From an uncultured Veillonellaceae bacterium (GTDB lineage: Bacteria > Bacillota > Negativicutes > Selenomonadales > Selenomonadaceae): a stretch of 40,791 nucleotides of DNA. The position numbers and the translations under genes are program-made. The DNA lies in the NCBI GenBank assembly GCA_900315615.1, contig OMZT01000128.1, forward strand, positions 1 to 40,791, given 5' to 3'. Below are positions 9,542 to 40,740 of this stretch, piece by piece (positions within the stretch are counted from its first letter, which is position 1; every line of letters begins with the position of its first letter). The notes under the pieces are model-generated. The model saw nothing but the letters and a program-made list of their open reading frames with translations, was not told where the DNA came from and searched no databases.

Positions 9542-11347
9542 CTATTGATTTGTGCTCTGGGCTTTGCCCTCAAGAGTTTCCATTGATTGCAGATGTTCTT
9601 TTATTTTCTTATCATAATAGTCAGATCTTTCTTTTGTGAAATCTTTTACGACAATCGTCGGCTTGCCGCCAAGTGTCCGGATCACGTCCTTATTCAACGC
9701 TCCTAAAATACGGCTCCGGACTTCGCGATTATCGCAATATATCGTCAGGCCATGCAGCCGCTTCACGCGGGAAAAAGCTTTCGGACTGAAGGAAATCTTA
9801 CTCGCAGTGATAAACAGCTCGCTCATCTGCTCGCAGGCGGCAAACGTCTCCGCCATACGCTCGTTAATCTTGTTGATGTTCGGAGAAAGATAGATGCGTT
9901 TCGCAAACGAATGGATACGCTGATTGAGGTTGTCTATGACTTGGTCGGCACTCTTTCCATTTCCGTTCGCATCGCGCCCATAGCGGTCGAATCCGTCCCT
10001 GTCGTAGCCATTCGCATCGTAGCCCTCGCGGTCAAATCCATCCTCGTTGTAGCCATTCGCGCGATAACCATCGTGATCGAAACCTCTCCTGTCGTAGCCG
10101 TTCACATCGTAGCCATCTGCATTGTAGCCGTCAAGGTCGTACCCATTGATGCCATTTCTCGCTTCATCGCTCGATATGCGTTTTACCATCACAAAGACAT
10201 TTTTGTTAGAAGCCTGGTCTTCGTTTTCCTGCATACTGGATTCAATCTCATGTGCGCATGCTTCATTCGCGCAATAAATCTCTAGCCGCTTGTACGGTTT
10301 TCTCCGCTTTGACAGCCATGTCATGCTGACGGAGGCGTAAGACTCCGCCTCTATGATAATCTTATTCAAGGCATACGCATCCACGATGCGCTCCATCCTT
10401 TTATCTAGTATATCGAGATTAGATTTCATGTACAGACAGGTTACGCTCGTCGAAATTATCTGCTTGTAGCTTTCGATAACCGTACATACATACCGTTCTT
10501 TCGGCTTGGCTATACCATGACGGTCGATGTCGTTACGGTCATATCCATCCCAATCATATCCATCTCTGTCATAGCCCTCTCGGTCATACCCGCTACGATC
10601 AAACCCTTTGCGGTCGAAGCCTTCTTTATCATACCCATCCCGATTGAAGCCCTCTTTGTCATATCCGCATTTGTCAAAGCCGTCCCAGGTATAGCCGTTC
10701 TCATCGTAAGCTGTCCCATTCCGGTGCCGGCCGCTCTGGTCAAACCCTCTTGCGTCATACGTTCGGCCGTCACGATCATAACCGGCTCGATTGAAGCCGC
10801 TTTCATTGAAGCCGTCGGCATCATAGCCATCATCATCGTAGAGGCTTTCCCCGTGATATCGCCCATACATATCAAAACCTTGATCATCATACTTCGTTCC
10901 ATTCTGATGGTTTCCCCGATAATCAAAGCCTTTCACGTTAATGCCATTCTGGTCAAAGCCGAAAACATCGTACCCATTGGCATCATAGAAGCTTCCGTTC
11001 TCCTGACGTCCATCGACTTTGAAACCGCGCTTATCCGTCCATGAATTTCTCTTGTGGACGCCGTATTCGTTGAATCCACGCTCCGCTGCTGTTTGCTTGA
11101 GCCTCATTTCACGGTACTCAACATACGAATCGCCTAATTTTTGAGATTCATTTTCGAGGCTTATGTGTCCGTTTTTATCATAGCCCTCCCTGTCGTAACC
11201 GTCCTTGTCATAGCCCTCTCGATCATATTTCTCCGTGCTGGACGCGGTCTGTGCTAGTGCCGTCCCCTGCGGCAAAGTATTGGGCAGGAGGCGGAGAAGG
11301 GTTTCGGTTTTTGTCTGCCACTCTTTTTCGATGTCGCTCGTGAACAT
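9542..11347 (-). CDS. pentapeptide GYD-repeat protein with duplicated domain
   Basis: A 601-residue protein I cannot assign to a named family. Much of it is five-residue repeats, G-(Y/F)-(D/N)-x-x, such as GYDREGYDRDGYDWDGYDRN. Dense blocks are at residues 41-60, 170-278 and 399-464, with a looser block at 90-168. Between and after them lie two related domains of about 80 residues (315-391 and 494-571). They share a helix with an RM pair, an RLEIYC / GLTIYC strand and a closing hydrophobic strand. The repeats are rich in Asp and Tyr and resemble D-x-D-G loops, so metal binding is conceivable. No signal peptide is visible. The ATG at 11347 has no ribosome binding site; the frame continues upstream through one UAG into the ferredoxin gene. 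Ends with UAG. Confidence 0.85.
   Translation of the reverse strand: MFTSDIEKEWQTKTETLLRLLPNTLPQGTALAQTASSTEKYDREGYDKDGYDREGYDKNGHISLENESQKLGDSYVEYREMRLKQTAAERGFNEYGVHKRNSWTDKRGFKVDGRQENGSFYDANGYDVFGFDQNGINVKGFDYRGNHQNGTKYDDQGFDMYGRYHGESLYDDDGYDADGFNESGFNRAGYDRDGRTYDARGFDQSGRHRNGTAYDENGYTWDGFDKCGYDKEGFNRDGYDKEGFDRKGFDRSGYDREGYDRDGYDWDGYDRNDIDRHGIAKPKERYVCTVIESYKQIISTSVTCLYMKSNLDILDKRMERIVDAYALNKIIIEAESYASVSMTWLSKRRKPYKRLEIYCANEACAHEIESSMQENEDQASNKNVFVMVKRISSDEARNGINGYDLDGYNADGYDVNGYDRRGFDHDGYRANGYNEDGFDREGYDANGYDRDGFDRYGRDANGNGKSADQVIDNLNQRIHSFAKRIYLSPNINKINERMAETFAACEQMSELFITASKISFSPKAFSRVKRLHGLTIYCDNREVRSRILGALNKDVIRTLGGKPTIVVKDFTKERSDYYDKKIKEHLQSMETLEGKAQSTNQ
9956..10153 (-). repeat. 15-bp tandem repeats (block 3 of the GYD protein)
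   Basis: Degenerate 15-base units encoding G-(Y/F)-(D/N)-x-x, about 13 copies between the two duplicated domains. Period and codon phase are constant. Confidence 0.9.
10514..10840 (-). repeat. 15-bp tandem repeats (block 2 of the GYD protein)
   Basis: The longest block, about 20 units of 15 bases, some spaced by short insertions (RTYDARG, RHRNGTAYDENG). The most regular stretch is at about 10520-10680. A shorter block of four units is at 11168-11227. Confidence 0.9.
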
Positions 11348-11371
11348 CTTGAGGGAACTGTCGATTTTCTC

Positions 11372-12241
11372 CTATGCGACTTCCGGGATGATGTTCTGGC
11401 ACTCATCCAAGATTTGTTCTGCCAATTTCTGCGATGCCCGCGAAATCTTGTAGCAATACTTATCAATCTCTTCTTCCGTATCATCACCAAATAAATGGCT
11501 AACGGTTCGGTATTCCGTGTGGTAGTCATCATCAATCCAACTGTCGAACCAGTCGTACGGCTCGCAGGCAGCTGCGACGCGGCTGGCGACGGCTTCGTCG
11601 AGGTACTTGAAAGACCATTCTTGGACTTTGTTATGAGTGACGCGGAAATCCGTGAAACCGTTCGGTAAATCCAGTTTATGTCCGAGAGCGCTTTCGGCCA
11701 TCGCAACGTATTCGCTGAGTCGCTTGCTCAGCAGTTGGTTCGTCTCGTAGAGATAGTTACCGGGCTCCTCAGCGTATTGCAAGAACGGCTCGAGCTTCGT
11801 CTGCTTGTAGCTGGCGGCGACTTGCTGTGCGAGCTTTTCGCGCTGCGAATACACGTTGTCCCTGAAGTCCTTCAGACCTTCACGGTCGGCAACGTCATCG
11901 TTCCGATAGATATACTGGTATTCACCGCGCCCCGGCAGGACAGGCAGGGAGTATTCCGCTTTGTTGAACGTATAGCGTGAAGCGTCCACTGGCGGCATCA
12001 CAAGTGGCTTTCGGAGCATTGCTTTAAGCTCCGCGAGGTTCACTTCATCCGCCTCGATACGGATGGCATGCTGCGGGCAGACGGCAACGAGCTGTGCTGC
12101 CTCACTATCTTGCGTGGGTGCAATTACCCCACCATTTGTTGGCACCGGACGTCCTTCTGCATCTTCTTCGATGAGTTGCCCTTGCAATGTGCAAGCACCG
12201 CACATCACGCACTTGTCATGGTCAATGATGATTTTCTTCAT
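11372..12241 (-). CDS. single-cluster 4Fe-4S ferredoxin fused to helical domain
   Basis: A 289-residue protein from the chosen start. The first 65 residues form a single-cluster ferredoxin: Cys11, Cys14, Cys17 in CVMCGAC and Cys55 in VAVCPQHAI, the C-x2-C-x2-C...C-P pattern. A proline-rich linker follows, then about 200 mostly helical, charged residues I do not recognise, including DWFDSWIDDDYH near 225. No membrane segment is visible. ATG 12241 is preferred over GTG 12250 because AAAGGATGAG is closer to normal spacing from it. The preceding gene's stop (TGA) directly touches the GTG. It ends in TAG, after which the same frame runs on into the GYD-repeat protein, so the two may once have been, or may still be, one polypeptide. 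Confidence 0.85.
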   Translation of the reverse strand: MKKIIIDHDKCVMCGACTLQGQLIEEDAEGRPVPTNGGVIAPTQDSEAAQLVAVCPQHAIRIEADEVNLAELKAMLRKPLVMPPVDASRYTFNKAEYSLPVLPGRGEYQYIYRNDDVADREGLKDFRDNVYSQREKLAQQVAASYKQTKLEPFLQYAEEPGNYLYETNQLLSKRLSEYVAMAESALGHKLDLPNGFTDFRVTHNKVQEWSFKYLDEAVASRVAAACEPYDWFDSWIDDDYHTEYRTVSHLFGDDTEEEIDKYCYKISRASQKLAEQILDECQNIIPEVA

Positions 12242-12250
12242 AAAGTTCAC

Positions 12251-13066
12251 TCATCCTTTCTGCAGCATGACGAGATACTGTTCTCCCATTGCCAGTGTCT
12301 TTTCGATTTCCTGGTGGATATTTCCATCCTCATCAAATAATGGTGTTTGCAGTATATCGTACACAGCACCAGCGAGGTTGATGCAAGTCATCAGGGCTGC
12401 GCGATCATCCCTTGAATAGCTTGCCCGGTTCGTTCCGTTCCGCTGGATGATATCCGCACTGTGGCTGATGCTCTTCAGAAAAAATACGTTGAGCTTGGCA
12501 AGTAATCCGGCATGGGCTTCTGCCTCTGTTGCGATTCCTTCCAGCACCGCCGCTTCATTCTGCATTTTTTCGCTGATAGCTGCTGCCTGGCGCTTCCGTG
12601 CACGTGCCAGCTGAACCTCGATTTCTGAATCCTTGACAATCGAGCCGATGATACCGCCATGTTTGAAGCTGAACAGCATATTGACAATGAGCTCCTTGTC
12701 CGACATCGCTGCCCCCGACACCGTTATCATGTGCTTCATCGTCGGGACGCCTTGATTTATGAGCTTGTTCCATCGCCCTTTCTGCTCTGGATCAACCTCA
12801 TCCATGTCCAACTGCATAATTTGTTGATAGATGTTCAAAAATGGCTCGATGCTGCTTTTGACAACGCCGCGCTTGCGGTTCGCGAGTTTCAGCAGGGATT
12901 TCGCTGTCTTGTCCTGCTGAATGGCAAGTTTGCGCTGCGTTTCTCCCATCTGATTCAGCGCGCGTGTCGTCATACGGCTTGCCCGCGCGTTGTTACTGTC
13001 AGCTGCCATAAGACGGTTCACGACAAATCCAACGGCTCCAGCTCCCAGAATCAACGGTAACGGCAT
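12251..13066 (-). CDS. unknown membrane-anchored helical protein
   Basis: 271 residues, not recognised. Residues 2-21 are a glycine-containing hydrophobic stretch (LPLILGAGAVGFVV) that could be a membrane anchor or a hydrophobic helix. The rest is predominantly helical and charged, with likely coiled coil around residues 30-60 and 145-175. No catalytic motif is evident. The ATG at 13066 is chosen because GGGAGG lies 8 bases before it; a GTG at 13075 overlaps that site. The gene overlaps or abuts its neighbours on both sides, so it is probably translated together with the HNH-like protein and the ferredoxin protein. Confidence 0.8.
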   Translation of the reverse strand: MPLPLILGAGAVGFVVNRLMAADSNNARASRMTTRALNQMGETQRKLAIQQDKTAKSLLKLANRKRGVVKSSIEPFLNIYQQIMQLDMDEVDPEQKGRWNKLINQGVPTMKHMITVSGAAMSDKELIVNMLFSFKHGGIIGSIVKDSEIEVQLARARKRQAAAISEKMQNEAAVLEGIATEAEAHAGLLAKLNVFFLKSISHSADIIQRNGTNRASYSRDDRAALMTCINLAGAVYDILQTPLFDEDGNIHQEIEKTLAMGEQYLVMLQKG

Positions 13067-13071
13067 GTTTC

Positions 13072-14451
13072 TCACCTCCCTTTCTTGCGAAAGTGCAATG
13101 CATTTTCATCATGATTGAAAAAGTCTGAAAATTGTTCTTCTGATGCAAACATGGTCTGCTGATGAAACAGAGACAGGATCTCATTCAGCCCATCAGCGAT
13201 GCCATTCGCATCATTTTCCAAAGAAGCATCGATGATTTGCCAGATGCCGGTTTCCGTCCACTGCGCAAATTCCGCCTGATGCTCGTCGAAAAGCATTTGA
13301 AGCTTTTCTCTCTGCGCACGCATCGCCTGCTGTGCTTCGTCCGCCAAACGGTAGAGCTCCTGCAGTTTGCGTTCCCTTGCCCGAATCTCACCTTTGTAGG
13401 AGCTATAATACTGCTTACAAACACTAATCGCCTCACCGAGAACGGAGGTCACAAGCATCGCTGCTGCTGTCCCTGCCGGTCCAGCTACCATCGTGCCAGC
13501 CACTTGCATGACATAAAGTCCCAGTCCTGTGGCTACGATATTTGCCGCAGCTTCTTCCTCGGATAGATCGCCGTCCAGATATTTCGCGACGCTGATGGAA
13601 GTCATTGCGAACATCGCCGCATAGCTCGGCACCTTTGGAAACTTCGCAGCCAAATTTGGGGCTGCCTTGCTGATGACTGCATACCCTGCTTTCTGCAAAG
13701 CTCGATTGCCCGCTTCTCCAGCCACGGCAGCGCCACCATCACGAACCGTATCCTTGATGGCTTCCTTCGTTTTCTTCTTTCCGCGCAGCACAGATACGAT
13801 ATTGAGGGCGCTGGATACCAAGAGCGCATTGGTGCCAGCTTCCACCATATCAGCTGTCGCATTACCGATTTGGCGAACAGCATCCTTATCTACTGTTTCT
13901 TGAAGAAATTGATTGGCTGTCTTGCCTTCGCTGGTTCTCTTGTCCAACGTTCCCGACAACTGGTTCTTTCCTTTCAAAACTTCTGCACTGACATACATGG
14001 AGGATTCCGACCGCGCCTGTTCGACAAGCATGTTATATGTCGTGATTGGGCTCTCTGGCTCACCCTGCATCGCGGAGGCAAAGAGGTACTCCGCATTGCT
14101 CATGGCGCGCTTTTTATTGTTGATGCGACGGGATGTCACAACGACATTCGCATCTGCATTGGTGAGCGTCCGTACGTCCTCTTTGCTCAGACGTCTTGAC
14201 TTGACATCCTCTCCGTATTTGTCAATGACTTTGGCAACCGGCGTGATATGATCCGTCTCTGCCATGTCTCGGAGGCGATGATGACTTTTTGCTCCTGCTG
14301 GCTTGTAGACCCGTTCGCCGGTGTATTCATCCGCAGCACTTTTCTTACCTACAAACGTCCGTTCACGATAGCTCGACGGGCTGATATTCCTAGCGTATAC
14401 ATCGTCAATATCCTTGCGGCCGAGTGCCGCTTTGTCTTTCGATTCATCCAT
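13072..14451 (-). CDS. HNH-like motif protein with hydrophobic glycine-rich core
   Basis: 459 residues. Residues 66-113 hold a possible HNH/endonuclease-VII-like layout: ETDHITPV (Asp67, His68, Pro71), then about 35 residues later LTNADANVVVTSRRIN and NKK, the N...N-x-x-K arrangement of many HNH proteins. Residues about 240-345 are hydrophobic and glycine/alanine-rich (AGTMVAGPAGTAAAMLVTSV), possibly membrane-inserting. Residues about 351-396 are likely coiled coil, and the tail is acidic. The start ATG at 14451 is set by AGAGGTG seven bases before it. The frame is open to 14628, but that stretch reads like an out-of-frame helix-turn-helix gene. It is first in a four-gene run and overlaps the next ribosome binding site. 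Nuclease activity is inference only. Confidence 0.8.
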   Translation of the reverse strand: MDESKDKAALGRKDIDDVYARNISPSSYRERTFVGKKSAADEYTGERVYKPAGAKSHHRLRDMAETDHITPVAKVIDKYGEDVKSRRLSKEDVRTLTNADANVVVTSRRINNKKRAMSNAEYLFASAMQGEPESPITTYNMLVEQARSESSMYVSAEVLKGKNQLSGTLDKRTSEGKTANQFLQETVDKDAVRQIGNATADMVEAGTNALLVSSALNIVSVLRGKKKTKEAIKDTVRDGGAAVAGEAGNRALQKAGYAVISKAAPNLAAKFPKVPSYAAMFAMTSISVAKYLDGDLSEEEAAANIVATGLGLYVMQVAGTMVAGPAGTAAAMLVTSVLGEAISVCKQYYSSYKGEIRARERKLQELYRLADEAQQAMRAQREKLQMLFDEHQAEFAQWTETGIWQIIDASLENDANGIADGLNEILSLFHQQTMFASEEQFSDFFNHDENALHFRKKGR

Positions 14452-14612
14452 GCCAGCACACCTCTGTCCATTTTTTTCAGAATCCGAATCGGTAGTGACA
14501 CGGACTTGTTGCCAAAGCCACATTCTACATGAGACAGATACGTCTTGTTGATACTCAATACCGCTACAAGCTCTGCTTGCGTCTGCCGTTTCAGTTTCCG
14601 AAAGCAGCCCAT
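14349..14612 (-). pseudogene. XRE-type helix-turn-helix remnant
   Basis: The frame encodes FRKLKRQTQAELVAVLSIN and then KTYLSHVECGFGNKSVSLP, a clear match to the XRE helix-turn-helix pattern (LTQ-EL---L-IS--YLS-IE-G---PS). The product would be 87 residues, but the second half overlaps the start of the HNH-like gene in another frame. The N-terminal helix is shortened. In the same frame an ATG at 14651 with GGGAGAA before it is followed by a stop after one codon, and a second TGA lies between them. This points to a decayed regulator, although a short functional repressor starting at 14612 is not excluded. Confidence 0.5.
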
Positions 14613-14681
14613 ACGCAAACCGATTCACCGCATCTGCTCACTTCATTCCATATATTTCTCCCAACTAATCCAGTCCTATAG

Positions 14682-36350: not shown

Positions 36351-37949
36351 TCAATTATTATCCTGCCCTGACTGCTGGCGCTTCTTCACTCGCTGTACCG
36401 AGGACGGCGATAGCCCTACCTGAGCCGATACTGCACGAACAGAATTGCCCTCGTTCAAAAGCTCCATTATCTTCTTGACGGTCTTTTCATCTACACCGCG
36501 GCGTCCACGTTTCTTGCCGATACGCTCTGCCTCAGCATCATTGTCATGGGATGTCCTATCATTTTTACCCGCCTTCTGTTGGCTATTATTATCGCCGCCC
36601 TTCTGTGCAGGTTTACGTTTCGGCTTTGCTTCGGCATTACTCTTTACATGATCTTTTGCTTTCATTATCCCATGCTCAGCTGTATGTGCCTCAGACGCAT
36701 CATCATCCACACTCTTGGCAGTTTCATCATTCTTACGGCGTATACGCCTACGTGTACTCTGCTTATTCGGCCTTTCCAAATTCTTTTTTTCGGAGGCCGT
36801 CATTTCCTGCCTGCCACTTTCTGTCACTTCTGCCTTATCTGAAAGAGTCACCCCGACAGCTGCCCTGGTCTTACTGCTATTACTTTCCATATTTTCGGAT
36901 GAATTTTCCATATCTGCTTCAGGCACCGACGCATGCTGAGCCGGCTCTGCTTCTATATCCTTCTTGCTGTTTTTTAGTGTCTGCAGTTCTTTCTCGAGCT
37001 CAGCAATTTTCTTTTCAAGATCCTTTGCCTCTCGTCCGAGGCCTATCAGCTTCGTATTCTCAGCGATCTGCTTCTCTACCTCTTCCTTAGCGACACGATC
37101 ACAGAGCTCATTGCGTGTAATCCCAGTATGGCTTGAGACATGTGTAGGCCAGACACGATGCTTTTGCACCAATATATTCAATCTCTGCCACAGTCCCAAT
37201 AGCTCTGGCTTGTTCTGGAACTGCTTCCATCCATCTTCTTCCCATTCGATGAACTGTTCCTGCTGTATAGCATTCACGATCGGCATACAGTCCGTATACA
37301 GGTAAACATTGGATGGATCCTTGATTGACTGAAGTGATCGTACTAGTGCCATAAGCTCCATATTAAGACTCGTCGTATCATTCTTAGAACCGCGAAGTAC
37401 ATATCCTGTATCTGTGCCACGTTTCATTACGACAGCCGCATACCCACCGACACCGGTACTCCAGCGTTCATAGCTCTTGCATGAGCCATCCGTATATACG
37501 ACATACTCCGGTATCTGACACAATCTGCGCGGATGATTCTCATGCTTGTCGTTGACTTCAGCAAGCATGCCCGTATCATCAACTTCAGAAAGTGGGACAG
37601 CATCACTCGCTTCTATCGTAATATCTACATCAGTTATTTTGGTGTCATCTTCCGAGTTACCTTTCCCATCGCTTCCTGCATTTGAGGACGGCGCCTTCAC
37701 GCCATTATTTGATGTTTTGGACTGCTTCTGCCTTCCTTGTGACTCAGGCGCTTCCTCAGCCGCTTTACGGCATTCATCTGTCAATTCATATGTTACGCCA
37801 TCCATATATTCTTCTGCCGAACCGAGATTATTAAAAGACTTCATCTCAAAATTCGAGTATCCCTTTATCTGCTTATGTGCTTCCTCTAAATTAATATATA
37901 TACCCGGAACGATACCGCTCCTCACCGCATAAAATTTTCTTGATGCCAT
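36351..37949 (-). CDS. viroplasmin-RNase H-helix-turn-helix fusion protein
   Basis: 532 residues from ATG 37949, where the viroplasmin domain begins (ASRKFYAVRSGIVPGIY, about 1-52). A low-complexity linker follows. The RNase HI domain is at about 148-290, with Asp154 (YTDGSC), Glu198 (NMELMAL), Asp220 (LYTDCM) and Asp284 (ELCDRVAKE); HTG lies at 274-276. A short coiled coil (about 305-335), a long Lys/Ser-rich basic region (about 340-485) and a C-terminal homeodomain-like helix-turn-helix (487-532, SVRAVSAQVGLSPSSVQRVK) complete it. The frame is open to 38048 without a better start. The combination suggests a nuclease tethered to DNA. It is first in a run with ireB and ruvX. Confidence 0.85.
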   Translation of the reverse strand: MASRKFYAVRSGIVPGIYINLEEAHKQIKGYSNFEMKSFNNLGSAEEYMDGVTYELTDECRKAAEEAPESQGRQKQSKTSNNGVKAPSSNAGSDGKGNSEDDTKITDVDITIEASDAVPLSEVDDTGMLAEVNDKHENHPRRLCQIPEYVVYTDGSCKSYERWSTGVGGYAAVVMKRGTDTGYVLRGSKNDTTSLNMELMALVRSLQSIKDPSNVYLYTDCMPIVNAIQQEQFIEWEEDGWKQFQNKPELLGLWQRLNILVQKHRVWPTHVSSHTGITRNELCDRVAKEEVEKQIAENTKLIGLGREAKDLEKKIAELEKELQTLKNSKKDIEAEPAQHASVPEADMENSSENMESNSSKTRAAVGVTLSDKAEVTESGRQEMTASEKKNLERPNKQSTRRRIRRKNDETAKSVDDDASEAHTAEHGIMKAKDHVKSNAEAKPKRKPAQKGGDNNSQQKAGKNDRTSHDNDAEAERIGKKRGRRGVDEKTVKKIMELLNEGNSVRAVSAQVGLSPSSVQRVKKRQQSGQDNN

Positions 37950-38279
37950 ATAATCTAATCTCTGCCGTTTAAACATAGAACAAGATTGGACATTTTCCAT
38001 CGAATGAAAATCACCAAACACCGCATGTACTTCATTAAGAAGTTCCAAACACGCGCTGTACCAGATATCAAATAAGATTTCTGTGCAAACATCCTTCTCG
38101 ACTATATTTGCAGAGGCAGCAGTTTTGTCACCCTTTCTTACTTAGTTTTATCTTTCAAGTACAGGCGCCTCCGCTCTCTCCTGAACTTTTCTATACTGGA
38201 AACGACTCCGTATTGTTATTTATATACTGACTTATATTATACTACTTTTCCACATTTGACTCTACAGTCTCTTATCCCT
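37950..38279 (-). promoter_or_regulatory. 330-base upstream region of the RNase H-HTH gene, possibly structured
   Basis: No gene is recognised here. On the minus strand a TATAAT-type box is at 38236-38241 without a clear -35. Downstream of it, GCGGAGGC (38167-38174) can pair with GCCTCTGC (38110-38117), enclosing a second stem TACTT/AAGTA (38057-38061 region shifted to 38139-38161). This could be a leader RNA fold, but I matched no known riboswitch. The RNase H frame stays open through part of it without a start codon. Confidence 0.35.
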
Positions 38280-39680
38280 TCATATCTTTCCTGCCCCGCC
38301 TCTATCATTCATGAAATATAACGTCTCATTCAAAAAAGATAATGCCGTCTTCTCGGACATCTTAGCGTGCTTATCCATAAGAAGTGTGTTGTACATATCG
38401 CTCAGACTGGACGCATTCATCTTTGCAGATGTGTCATTACCCTCAATCACATACTCGATGATATCGCATGCCTTCCTGTCAGCGTCCGCAAGCGCTTCAA
38501 AATAATTCAGCTGTCTGTAGCACTCTGCTATATCTGCCTCTGGCAGCCTGTTCCATAATACATCAGCTGCATGCTTCATATCCGTCACATCATTACGCAC
38601 ACGTGCAAGCATCAGTTTGGCACTGACCTTGTCACCAGACTTAGCTGCTCGAAACACCCCATCTATATGTGCACGCATTTCTGGTGCATCCTGCAATCCC
38701 GCGTCCGCCCATTCATTATGCATCAGTCTTGAGTGTACCGCAAACGTCCTCATCTCATCGGCAATGTCACCATATCTCTCACTAATCGTCTCCGAAAAGG
38801 CCCTTTCCGCATCATACGTCTTTGGAGATGCAACGTATTTCGCTCCCGTACCAATCGCAATCTTTGAAAGCGACTCCGCCGACATCGGATTGAAAAGCAA
38901 GAGTGGAACATCATCCAAACGCACCGGGAGGCCCTCTATCGGTCCTAATGCGAGCTTTTCCTGCATATAATCATTTGCCGGATAGTTCCACCATATACCT
39001 ACCGGTCTATCATACATTTTTGATACACTCTCTAAGTCTTTGCTGTCAATGCTCTGACATACAACCCCCTTGCCCGTATAGAGGACAATATTCTCCTTAT
39101 CGAGCTTGGAAGCAATCTGTCCCGTGTACCCATCTGGATCCATACACGCACTATAATACTCAGTCGGTACTATGATGAGTGGAGCTATGTCATTATGCCG
39201 CTTCACGAAATTTTCGTCAACGCCATGTACGAATGCTGCTTGCTCATGAGCATCTTTTGATTTTATATCATCAAAGAATACCGCAAACCTTTTGATGCCA
39301 ATGCCATACATGGCTTCTAGCTTGTTGACAGCCGCTTCAATATCATTCTCCATACTCATCTCAGCAAGGTCGTTTCCCGGTGAGACTGCATATACGAAAT
39401 CAATACCAAGTTCTGCTGCACGCCTCGAGAGCTCGTTCAGACGTCCCATCTGCTCGGCCGGATACGGATCACGCCACCTTGAGCGATGGTACACGTCGTC
39501 CTTGGGAGCATAGACATATACGGATAATCCATTATCATGCATGAATTGCATCATGTCAAGCCTTTCAGCATGTGTCCACGGGCGGCCATAGAATCCCTCA
39601 ACGATTCCTGCCCTATTGCATTGTACAGAAGCAGGCAATAAGAGAACGGCCAGTAATACAAACAGGAATATACGTCTCAA
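38280..39680 (-). CDS. GH84 beta-N-acetylglucosaminidase-like protein
   Basis: A 466-residue secreted or membrane-attached glycosidase of the GH84 type (hyaluronidase/O-GlcNAcase family). A signal peptide (FLFVLLAVLLLPASVQ) is followed by Cys21, which could be a weak lipobox. The barrel begins IVEGFYGRPWTHAERLDMM, then YVYAPKDDVYHRSRWRDPYP. The catalytic Asp pair is FFDDIK (137-138). The C-terminal 170 residues are helical. Likely substrate is GlcNAc- or MurNAc-containing glycan. The start is TTG 39680 after GAGGGAAT. It is divergent from the recombinase gene. Confidence 0.88.
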   Translation of the reverse strand: MRRIFLFVLLAVLLLPASVQCNRAGIVEGFYGRPWTHAERLDMMQFMHDNGLSVYVYAPKDDVYHRSRWRDPYPAEQMGRLNELSRRAAELGIDFVYAVSPGNDLAEMSMENDIEAAVNKLEAMYGIGIKRFAVFFDDIKSKDAHEQAAFVHGVDENFVKRHNDIAPLIIVPTEYYSACMDPDGYTGQIASKLDKENIVLYTGKGVVCQSIDSKDLESVSKMYDRPVGIWWNYPANDYMQEKLALGPIEGLPVRLDDVPLLLFNPMSAESLSKIAIGTGAKYVASPKTYDAERAFSETISERYGDIADEMRTFAVHSRLMHNEWADAGLQDAPEMRAHIDGVFRAAKSGDKVSAKLMLARVRNDVTDMKHAADVLWNRLPEADIAECYRQLNYFEALADADRKACDIIEYVIEGNDTSAKMNASSLSDMYNTLLMDKHAKMSEKTALSFLNETLYFMNDRGGAGKI

Positions 39681-39708
39681 TTTTATTCCCTCCCGTAGAA
39701 AAAAAGTG

Positions 39709-39714
39709 TATAAT
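39709..39714 (+). promoter_or_regulatory. -10 box of the recombinase gene
   Basis: A perfect TATAAT. No good -35 is seen. It would start transcription at about 39721, giving a leader of only about 15 bases that just contains GGAGG. Confidence 0.45.
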
Positions 39715-39735
39715 ATGATTCGGAGGATGGATGAT

Positions 39736-40740
39736 ATGAATACTCATGATATATCAAATAATCAGGATGATAATTTCTTGCTCCTGCGCAACCAGCGAGT
39801 TGAAGGGAACAGAAAGCTGACAGATAAAAGCAAGGCACGCATGCGCCATTCAAGAGCAAGTAACACGCTGAAGGCATATCATGCCGACTGGAAAGATTTC
39901 ACTGACTGGTGCGACTGGAAATCGGTACGTTCTCTGCCAGCCGAGCCAGAAACCATAACAAACTACATAAACGATCTAGCTGATGATGCAAAGGCTAATA
40001 CCGTAGCACGTCGCGTAACGGCAATATCGGAAAACCATATAGCTGCCGGCTTCATCGGAGACCGCAACCCAGCAAAAGCCAGCATGGTACGTGATGCATT
40101 ATCTGCCATACGCCGTGAAAAAGGCACATTCCAGCAAGGCAAGGCTCCTATACTTCTCGAGACATTATACCAGATTGCTTTATGTTTCGGAGATGATATA
40201 CAAAGCTTACGTGACAGGGCGGTAATAATGCTTGGCTTTGCAGGAGCATTCAGGCGTTCAGAGCTAGCACGGATACAGTATGATGAGCTTACATTCACCA
40301 AACAAGGTATGATCGTATTCGTGCCACGCGCCAAAGGCGACCAGCTTGGAAAAGGCAGTGAAATCGCGATTCCCTATGCACCCGACAATGCTGTTTGCGC
40401 CGTAAGTGCTACAAAGAACTGGCTTGATGCCTCTGGCATCACCGCAGGGCCGATATTCCGTCCGTTCAAATCCAATATGGAACTGCGTAACACACAGCTT
40501 TCCGATAAATCCATAGCACTCATCGTCAAGAAATATGCCGAGCTCGCGGGCTTCGACCCTAAGTATTTCGCGGGGCACAGCCTCCGCAGAGGATTTGCGA
40601 CGAGCGCAGCGCAGCATGACGTAGATACCCTCACGATCATGAAACAAACGCGGCATAAATCCGAAAAGATGGTACATCGTTATATCGAGCAGGGAAACCT
40701 TTTCCGCAACAATGCACTAACGAAAATGTATCACGACTAA
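39736..40740 (+). CDS. tyrosine recombinase/integrase
   Basis: A 334-residue site-specific recombinase. The N-terminal SAM-like core-binding domain (about 38-125) reads SNTLKAYHADWKDFTDWC. The catalytic domain shows Arg173 (GAFRRSEL), Lys200 (VPRAKGDQ), His281 and Arg284 (HSLRRGFAT), His307 (TRHKS) and Tyr316 (VHRYIEQ), the full R-K-H-R-H-Y set. ATG 39736 is nine bases after GGAGG; the ATG at 39727 touches that site. No excisionase, cargo genes or attachment repeats were recognised before the window ends 51 bases later. It could belong to a mobile element to the right or act as a resident recombinase. Confidence 0.92.
   Translation: MNTHDISNNQDDNFLLLRNQRVEGNRKLTDKSKARMRHSRASNTLKAYHADWKDFTDWCDWKSVRSLPAEPETITNYINDLADDAKANTVARRVTAISENHIAAGFIGDRNPAKASMVRDALSAIRREKGTFQQGKAPILLETLYQIALCFGDDIQSLRDRAVIMLGFAGAFRRSELARIQYDELTFTKQGMIVFVPRAKGDQLGKGSEIAIPYAPDNAVCAVSATKNWLDASGITAGPIFRPFKSNMELRNTQLSDKSIALIVKKYAELAGFDPKYFAGHSLRRGFATSAAQHDVDTLTIMKQTRHKSEKMVHRYIEQGNLFRNNALTKMYHD

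Follow-up and report, generated by a model that had tools for sequence, protein, structure and literature searches.

The DNA analysed here, hereafter called the window, is a stretch of 40,791 nucleotides that makes up one whole contig of a 1.97-Mb genome in 188 contigs. On its minus strand lies an operon of three genes, A, B and C, encoding an HNH/hydrophobic protein, a helical protein and a [4Fe-4S] protein, respectively. Gene A (13072..14451; 459 aa) specifies an N-terminal HNH-like domain, followed by a helical region with a hydrophobic hairpin and by a conserved C-terminal domain, and gene B (12251..13066; ~271 aa) specifies a helical partner. The first part of gene C (11372..12241) contains a single [4Fe-4S] ferredoxin domain and a C2 domain of unknown fold, and runs up to an in-frame amber codon; the remainder (9542..11371) contains the rest of a conserved C-terminal helix, arrays of GYD pentapeptide repeats and a duplicated domain, the copies of which match each other in pairwise comparison (E=3e-4). 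The starts of A (ATG 14451), B (ATG 13066) and C (ATG 12241) are backed by homologues. A preliminary description of the locus had proposed four genes that overlap or abut. Its four minus-strand open reading frames are found at about the positions it gave, A and B overlap by 4 nt and B abuts C, but its third and fourth genes form a single frame, so that the locus is an operon of three genes rather than four. Its remark that the operon has a codon pattern of its own is borne out as well: GC3 is 0.54-0.62 in the operon and 0.38-0.51 in 28 other genes of the window, and the composition is therefore correctly called foreign.

The ferredoxin domain of C is detected by the Pfam family Fer4_15 (PF13459) with an E-value of 1.8e-7 and a score of 32.2 bits, against a gathering score of 22.4. 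The cluster ligands, C-x2-C-x2-C ... CP, are encoded at 12077..12211 (minus strand) and occupy the columns C14, C17, C20, C58 and P59, all of which are invariant in an alignment of 18 C sequences. Basically, C resembles other single 4Fe-4S ferredoxin domains of this family in that it keeps all four cluster cysteines and the CP motif, but it differs in that the domain is fused to the C2 domain. Elsewhere, the C2 domain is fused C-terminally to a Ser/Thr protein kinase (L134, 7218-8669, and L135, 6398-8032, both on the minus strand), and in L134 a gene for a dynamin-type GTPase (Dynamin_N, E=2e-11) lies near the kinase-C2 gene.

The amber codon (TAG, 11372..11374, minus strand) separates C from its C-terminal tail, which the preliminary description had taken for a separate fourth member, a GYD-repeat protein. 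The stop at 11374-11372 and the ATG at 11347 are in the same frame with 24 nt between them and no further stop, and the readthrough residues, '...EVA[TAG]EKIDSSLKMFTSDIEKEWQTKTETLLRLL', give a gap-free alignment with the C-terminal helix found in relatives, such as 'KFCERELDRFHKEIEQEWFDKINYLLHEI'. Since the amber lies inside a helix that is conserved and read through in the relatives, the ferredoxin and GYD reading frames constitute one split gene, and the separate fourth member is dropped in favour of a GYD tail on C. The C proteins of relatives are about 335 aa long and some carry other fused tails, namely, Sel1-like repeats (L066), another repeat (L064) and a further domain (L074), which indicates that the GYD part is a lineage-specific tail. 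The G[YF][DN]xx pentapeptides form two arrays (10532..11215 and 9980..10144, minus strand) with 33 units in all, in which codon positions 1 and 2 are largely fixed and position 3 is free. Because the codons are free only at the third position, the tail was under selection at the protein level, and the amber is therefore recent, suppressed or an assembly error. It is quite improbable, in our estimate, that the GYD part is instead an independent fourth gene starting at ATG 11347, or that a deliberate readthrough of the amber yields two forms of C. The tail does have an open frame of 601 codons with an ATG, and an AGGAG overlaps the TAG; however, this AGGAG is ~20 nt from the ATG, which exceeds the usual spacing of a ribosome site, the supposed protein opens with residues that complete the helix conserved in relatives, other C proteins carry different tails at this place (L064, L066 and L074), and elsewhere no separate GYD gene is found beside A and B. 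Note that the GYD repeats were rejected as a marker of the system, because such repeats occur in unrelated proteins of the class: G[FY][DN]xx repeats were seen in other genomes at L098 (5697-11789), L099 (7564-8121), L100 (6053-9478) and L101 (3-1847), and by sequence reading the repeat proteins of L098 and L100 adjoin LemA-like and zinc-ribbon genes.

The HNH-like motif of A, AETDHITPVAKV...NADANVVVTSRRINNKKRAMSN, is encoded at 14095..14262 on the minus strand and is common to relatives; residues 64-119 of the protein read AETDHITPV...NADANVVVTSRRINNKKRAMSN. Eight A proteins (that of the window and those of L060, L062, L063, L064, L065, L068 and L070) carry a DH...N...NxxK motif, and with it the DH...N...N(H) catalytic motif of HNH endonucleases; seven of the eight have DHxxP, and the remaining one, L070, has DHINA. 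In a Pfam search the A protein of the window itself matched no HNH-type family, and GmrSD_C matched three of its relatives (best E=9e-8). Together, the motif and these three matches back the suggestion in the preliminary description that A is a possible nuclease, which we treat as a predicted one. An AlphaFold2 model of A has pLDDT values mostly of 80-93 over the HNH part and is poor in the middle. When this model was compared with the PDB using Foldseek, the best matches were the HNH domains of NmeCas9, at a weak E-value of about 0.5, and the GmrSD-family protein BrxU ranked below them; these matches are consistent with an HNH fold, although they are not proof of one. A thus resembles GmrSD_C and Cas9-type HNH nucleases in its DHxxP...N...NxxK motif, in the Pfam matches of its relatives and in its top Foldseek matches, but it contains neither the GmrSD N-terminal domain nor guide-RNA machinery, and the fold match is statistically weak. 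As far as the sequences go, A has an HNH-type motif ahead of a hydrophobic, helical domain, this domain being what stays constant in the family, and C is a single [4Fe-4S] ferredoxin domain with a partner domain, to which extra C-terminal modules are added in some genomes. In the related A proteins of L055-L059, L061 and L069 the HNH part is absent and the rest of A is kept. That these proteins retain the C-terminal part of A, together with B and C, argues that the constant core may be the A/B complex, with the HNH domain as a swappable effector.

For B, the structure model (pLDDT 73) contains two long helices of 74 and 51 residues. The preliminary description had assigned a membrane anchor to this protein, which appears weak: there is a single segment near the N-terminus, and it is marginal (mean Kyte-Doolittle value 1.66), and the hydrophobic hairpin of the operon sits in A, at about residues 305-345. 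An alpha-pore-forming-toxin fold was considered for B and found no support, as a fold search with the model returned no PDB match at E<0.001. In addition, a sequence search of the PDB with A and B profiles gave matches at chance level only.

Among the 381 genomes of the class, B is found in 40 and C in 22, and the order A-B-C recurs in about 20 genomes from at least five families. In the neighbourhoods that we fetched, the three genes share one strand and keep their order, and the gaps between them range from -52 to +41 nt. In one of these loci (L069), C was placed by the C search although an overlapping reading frame had masked it in ORF picking; in another (L073), a Sel1-like gene stands third in place of C; and four (L066, L067, L071 and L072) are limited by contig ends or broken A genes. 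The flanks, on the other hand, differ between genomes: no gene family other than A, B, C, an XRE regulator and a small gene for a zinc-ribbon protein occurs in more than four of 21 loci, and the next best shared non-regulator cluster occurs in 4/21. The conserved order in about 20 genomes of at least five families identifies the cassette as a genuine, patchy unit, and it is self-contained. The preliminary description had called it an accessory cassette, and the conserved order, patchy occurrence, genome-specific flanks and foreign composition all agree with this; it had also asked whether homologues stay adjacent in unrelated genomes, and adjacency, rather than a lack of co-occurrence, was found. 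In a scan of named organisms the B protein of the window gave no match, and the C protein of a relative recovered metagenome-assembled genomes of Selenomonadaceae/Selenomonadales, several of them from ruminants. Neither the window proteins, in searches of phage, plasmid and viral-contig records, nor a relative of C, in a search of this kind, had relatives there.

Regulators of the XRE or WYL type lie upstream of A or B in several loci, with WYL regulators on plasmids. In five Selenomonadaceae-type loci (L055, L056, L059, L061 and L008), a small zinc-ribbon protein (NCPHCGRKL...) is encoded between the XRE regulator and A. In the window, the regulator upstream of A is an XRE-type (HTH_3) remnant at the start region of A (14481..14639, minus strand), which is interrupted by a TGA (14625-14627) at a codon that specifies Cys or Tyr in relatives, and which has lost its C-terminus. 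It matches the regulator of L058 (tblastn, E=1e-15) and also that of L061, and an intact relative is recognised as HTH_3 at E=4e-13. The statement that the operon is flanked by decayed genes accordingly holds for the upstream side and fails for the downstream side, where an aldehyde dehydrogenase gene is intact (Pfam E=2e-154); the next gene upstream beyond the remnant is also intact (OGG_N, E=5e-20). The regulator pseudogene and the amber in C imply that this copy of the operon may be partly inactive. A stronger form of this view, that the copy is decaying, no longer functions and has ceased to produce the GYD part, is plausible, although we lean somewhat against it. In its favour are the XRE pseudogene, the position of the amber in the conserved C-terminal helix, and the broken genes of relatives, namely, a frameshifted C in L056, a B in pieces in L074 and a split A in L072, which in themselves suggest frequent inactivation. 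However, A and B of the window are intact, the frame stays open for the 601 codons past the amber, and constraint at the protein level is seen in the repeats. Two other features of the window were noted: a gene of the phage-integrase family (PF00589, E=4e-18; 39616-40740, plus strand), which lies a long way from the operon at the right contig end, and an RNase H gene with a Cauli_VI domain at the N-terminus and a tail of the HTH type (36351-38048, minus strand), which is either an unusual fusion or an ORF extension.

Comparison of profiles places the operon in a wider family. Using hhalign, profiles of the ferredoxin clade match those of a second clade, A'B', with E=3e-46 for A and 5e-33 for B; homologous, adjacent A and B subunits are thus a feature common to the cassette and to PDC-M09, a two-gene system predicted in PADLOC. 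The PADLOC model PDC-M09B matches 13 of 24 A proteins (best 5e-18) and PDC-M09A matches 10 of 26 B proteins (best 1e-35). Differences exist, however: against the PADLOC models, the A protein of the window has no PDC-M09B match and hits only PDC-M40B and LeoBC, B has no PDC-M09A match and has lost the glycine-rich hydrophobic hairpin of B', PDLC04407 has no match in the genome of the window, and the third gene encodes a ferredoxin-C2 protein rather than a CxxCxxCC protein. The likeness to PDC-M40 is confined to the HNH half of A, which matches PDC-M40B at 8e-7 over 122 of 547 positions, whereas B has no PDC-M40A match. The third gene of A'B' operons often encodes a CxxCxxCC (YkgJ-type) protein (PF03692, E=6e-9), an arrangement also seen on plasmids of Klebsiella, Duffyella and Massilia. 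A C-terminal extension is common to the ferredoxin protein of L074 and the CxxCxxCC proteins of L143 and L137 (E=4e-6 and 5e-5 in pairwise comparison, with a z of about 9 against shuffled sequences), which is the best evidence that both metal proteins do the same job. On the Klebsiella and Duffyella plasmids (L148 and L150), A' and B' are annotated as 'cob(I)alamin/cobalamin adenosyltransferase' and 'chemotaxis protein' and a YkgJ family protein comes next; an HNH-like DH motif is present in these A' proteins, and the annotations of A' and B' look wrong.

What is established at the level of sequence is the operon, the HNH motif, the Fe-S ligands and the exchange of the third gene. Our tentative interpretation, which we hold at a little under even confidence, is that the cassette is a ferredoxin-type subtype of a system consisting of A', B' and a metal protein, corresponding to the PADLOC candidate PDC-M09 with an HNH part like that of PDC-M40B, and that it serves HNH- and membrane-based defence or stress response with the metal-cluster protein as sensor. 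In such a system, A and B would form a silent, restrained complex that is probably associated with the membrane, and C, or its CxxCxxCC counterpart, would report the state of an Fe-S cluster or a ligand to this complex. Infection, or redox or iron stress, would disturb the signal from C and release A-B, upon which the HNH domain could cut DNA, the hydrophobic hairpin could damage the membrane, or both, so that the phage or the cell is stopped. A narrower version, namely, an immune system in which a [4Fe-4S] ferredoxin-like or CxxCxxCC trigger restrains or fires a membrane-linked HNH nuclease and infection is sensed through the iron-sulfur or redox state, seems to us unlikely.

The one pointer to phage defence, which is a prediction, is the candidate status of the family in PADLOC. 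A literature search found no paper naming PDC-M09 and no published function for any family member, and two other PADLOC PDC candidates showed no activity when assayed (PMC12409345), which calls for caution with such predictions. The preliminary description had proposed looking for homologues in defence islands, and no enrichment was demonstrated in the neighbourhoods: defence-type genes (HsdR, PDC-M38A/AbiLi-like, AbiLi-like, PDC-S01 and HerA) occur in 5 of 20 loci, counted over ten hand-picked proteins, and this is not shown to exceed the control of 17 random stretches of the same genomes, where PDC-S01, mad3, DEDDh and a CRISPR locus were also matched. An AAA ATPase gene (AbiLi/AriA/PDC-M38A-like) with a small partner gene was observed beside A-B-C in L071 (11757-13569, minus strand) and L065 (12898-14575, plus strand). 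A module for stress response rather than phage defence must also be considered, in which a membrane-associated A/B under a metal or redox sensor is kin to Ter-type (TerB, vWA, PP2C) systems and the HNH variants serve, under stress, to process DNA or to bring about controlled death. TerB (PF05099) adjoins A'B' in L106, and by sequence reading TerB-like genes lie in L137, L142 and L144 and TerB-like, vWA-like and phosphatase-like genes in L136; a Ser/Thr kinase stands beside A'B' in L145 and, as noted above, forms one protein with the C2 domain in each of L134 and L135; and the third protein has metal-ligand cysteines in both clades. We nevertheless regard this as somewhat unlikely, since a patchy distribution with frequently broken copies is seen more typically in conflict systems, a system that purely senses stress leaves little room for an HNH nuclease, and both matching families were put forward by the authors of PADLOC as defence candidates. 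Far less probable is a membrane-remodelling system akin to the split dynamins LeoB/LeoC of E. coli (PMC4159319). Several A and B proteins match PADLOC LeoBC and LeoB weakly (best 5e-5), but these matches are confined to hydrophobic helical stretches, and the model of B lacks a PDB fold match at the threshold given above. Membership in LeoBC was rejected because the operon has no GTPase, no such family being found in A, B or C.

Returning to the subtype of PDC-M09 that we tentatively propose, what was known so far is a two-gene family that extends far beyond this phylum and is listed in PADLOC as a candidate only. The new element is the third part, a metal-cluster protein that comes in two unrelated forms and has an accessory domain common to some members, and the annotation of the split gene C is corrected at the same time. 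This makes a hypothesis testable for the family, namely, that the state of an Fe-S cluster or metal would control the HNH effector.
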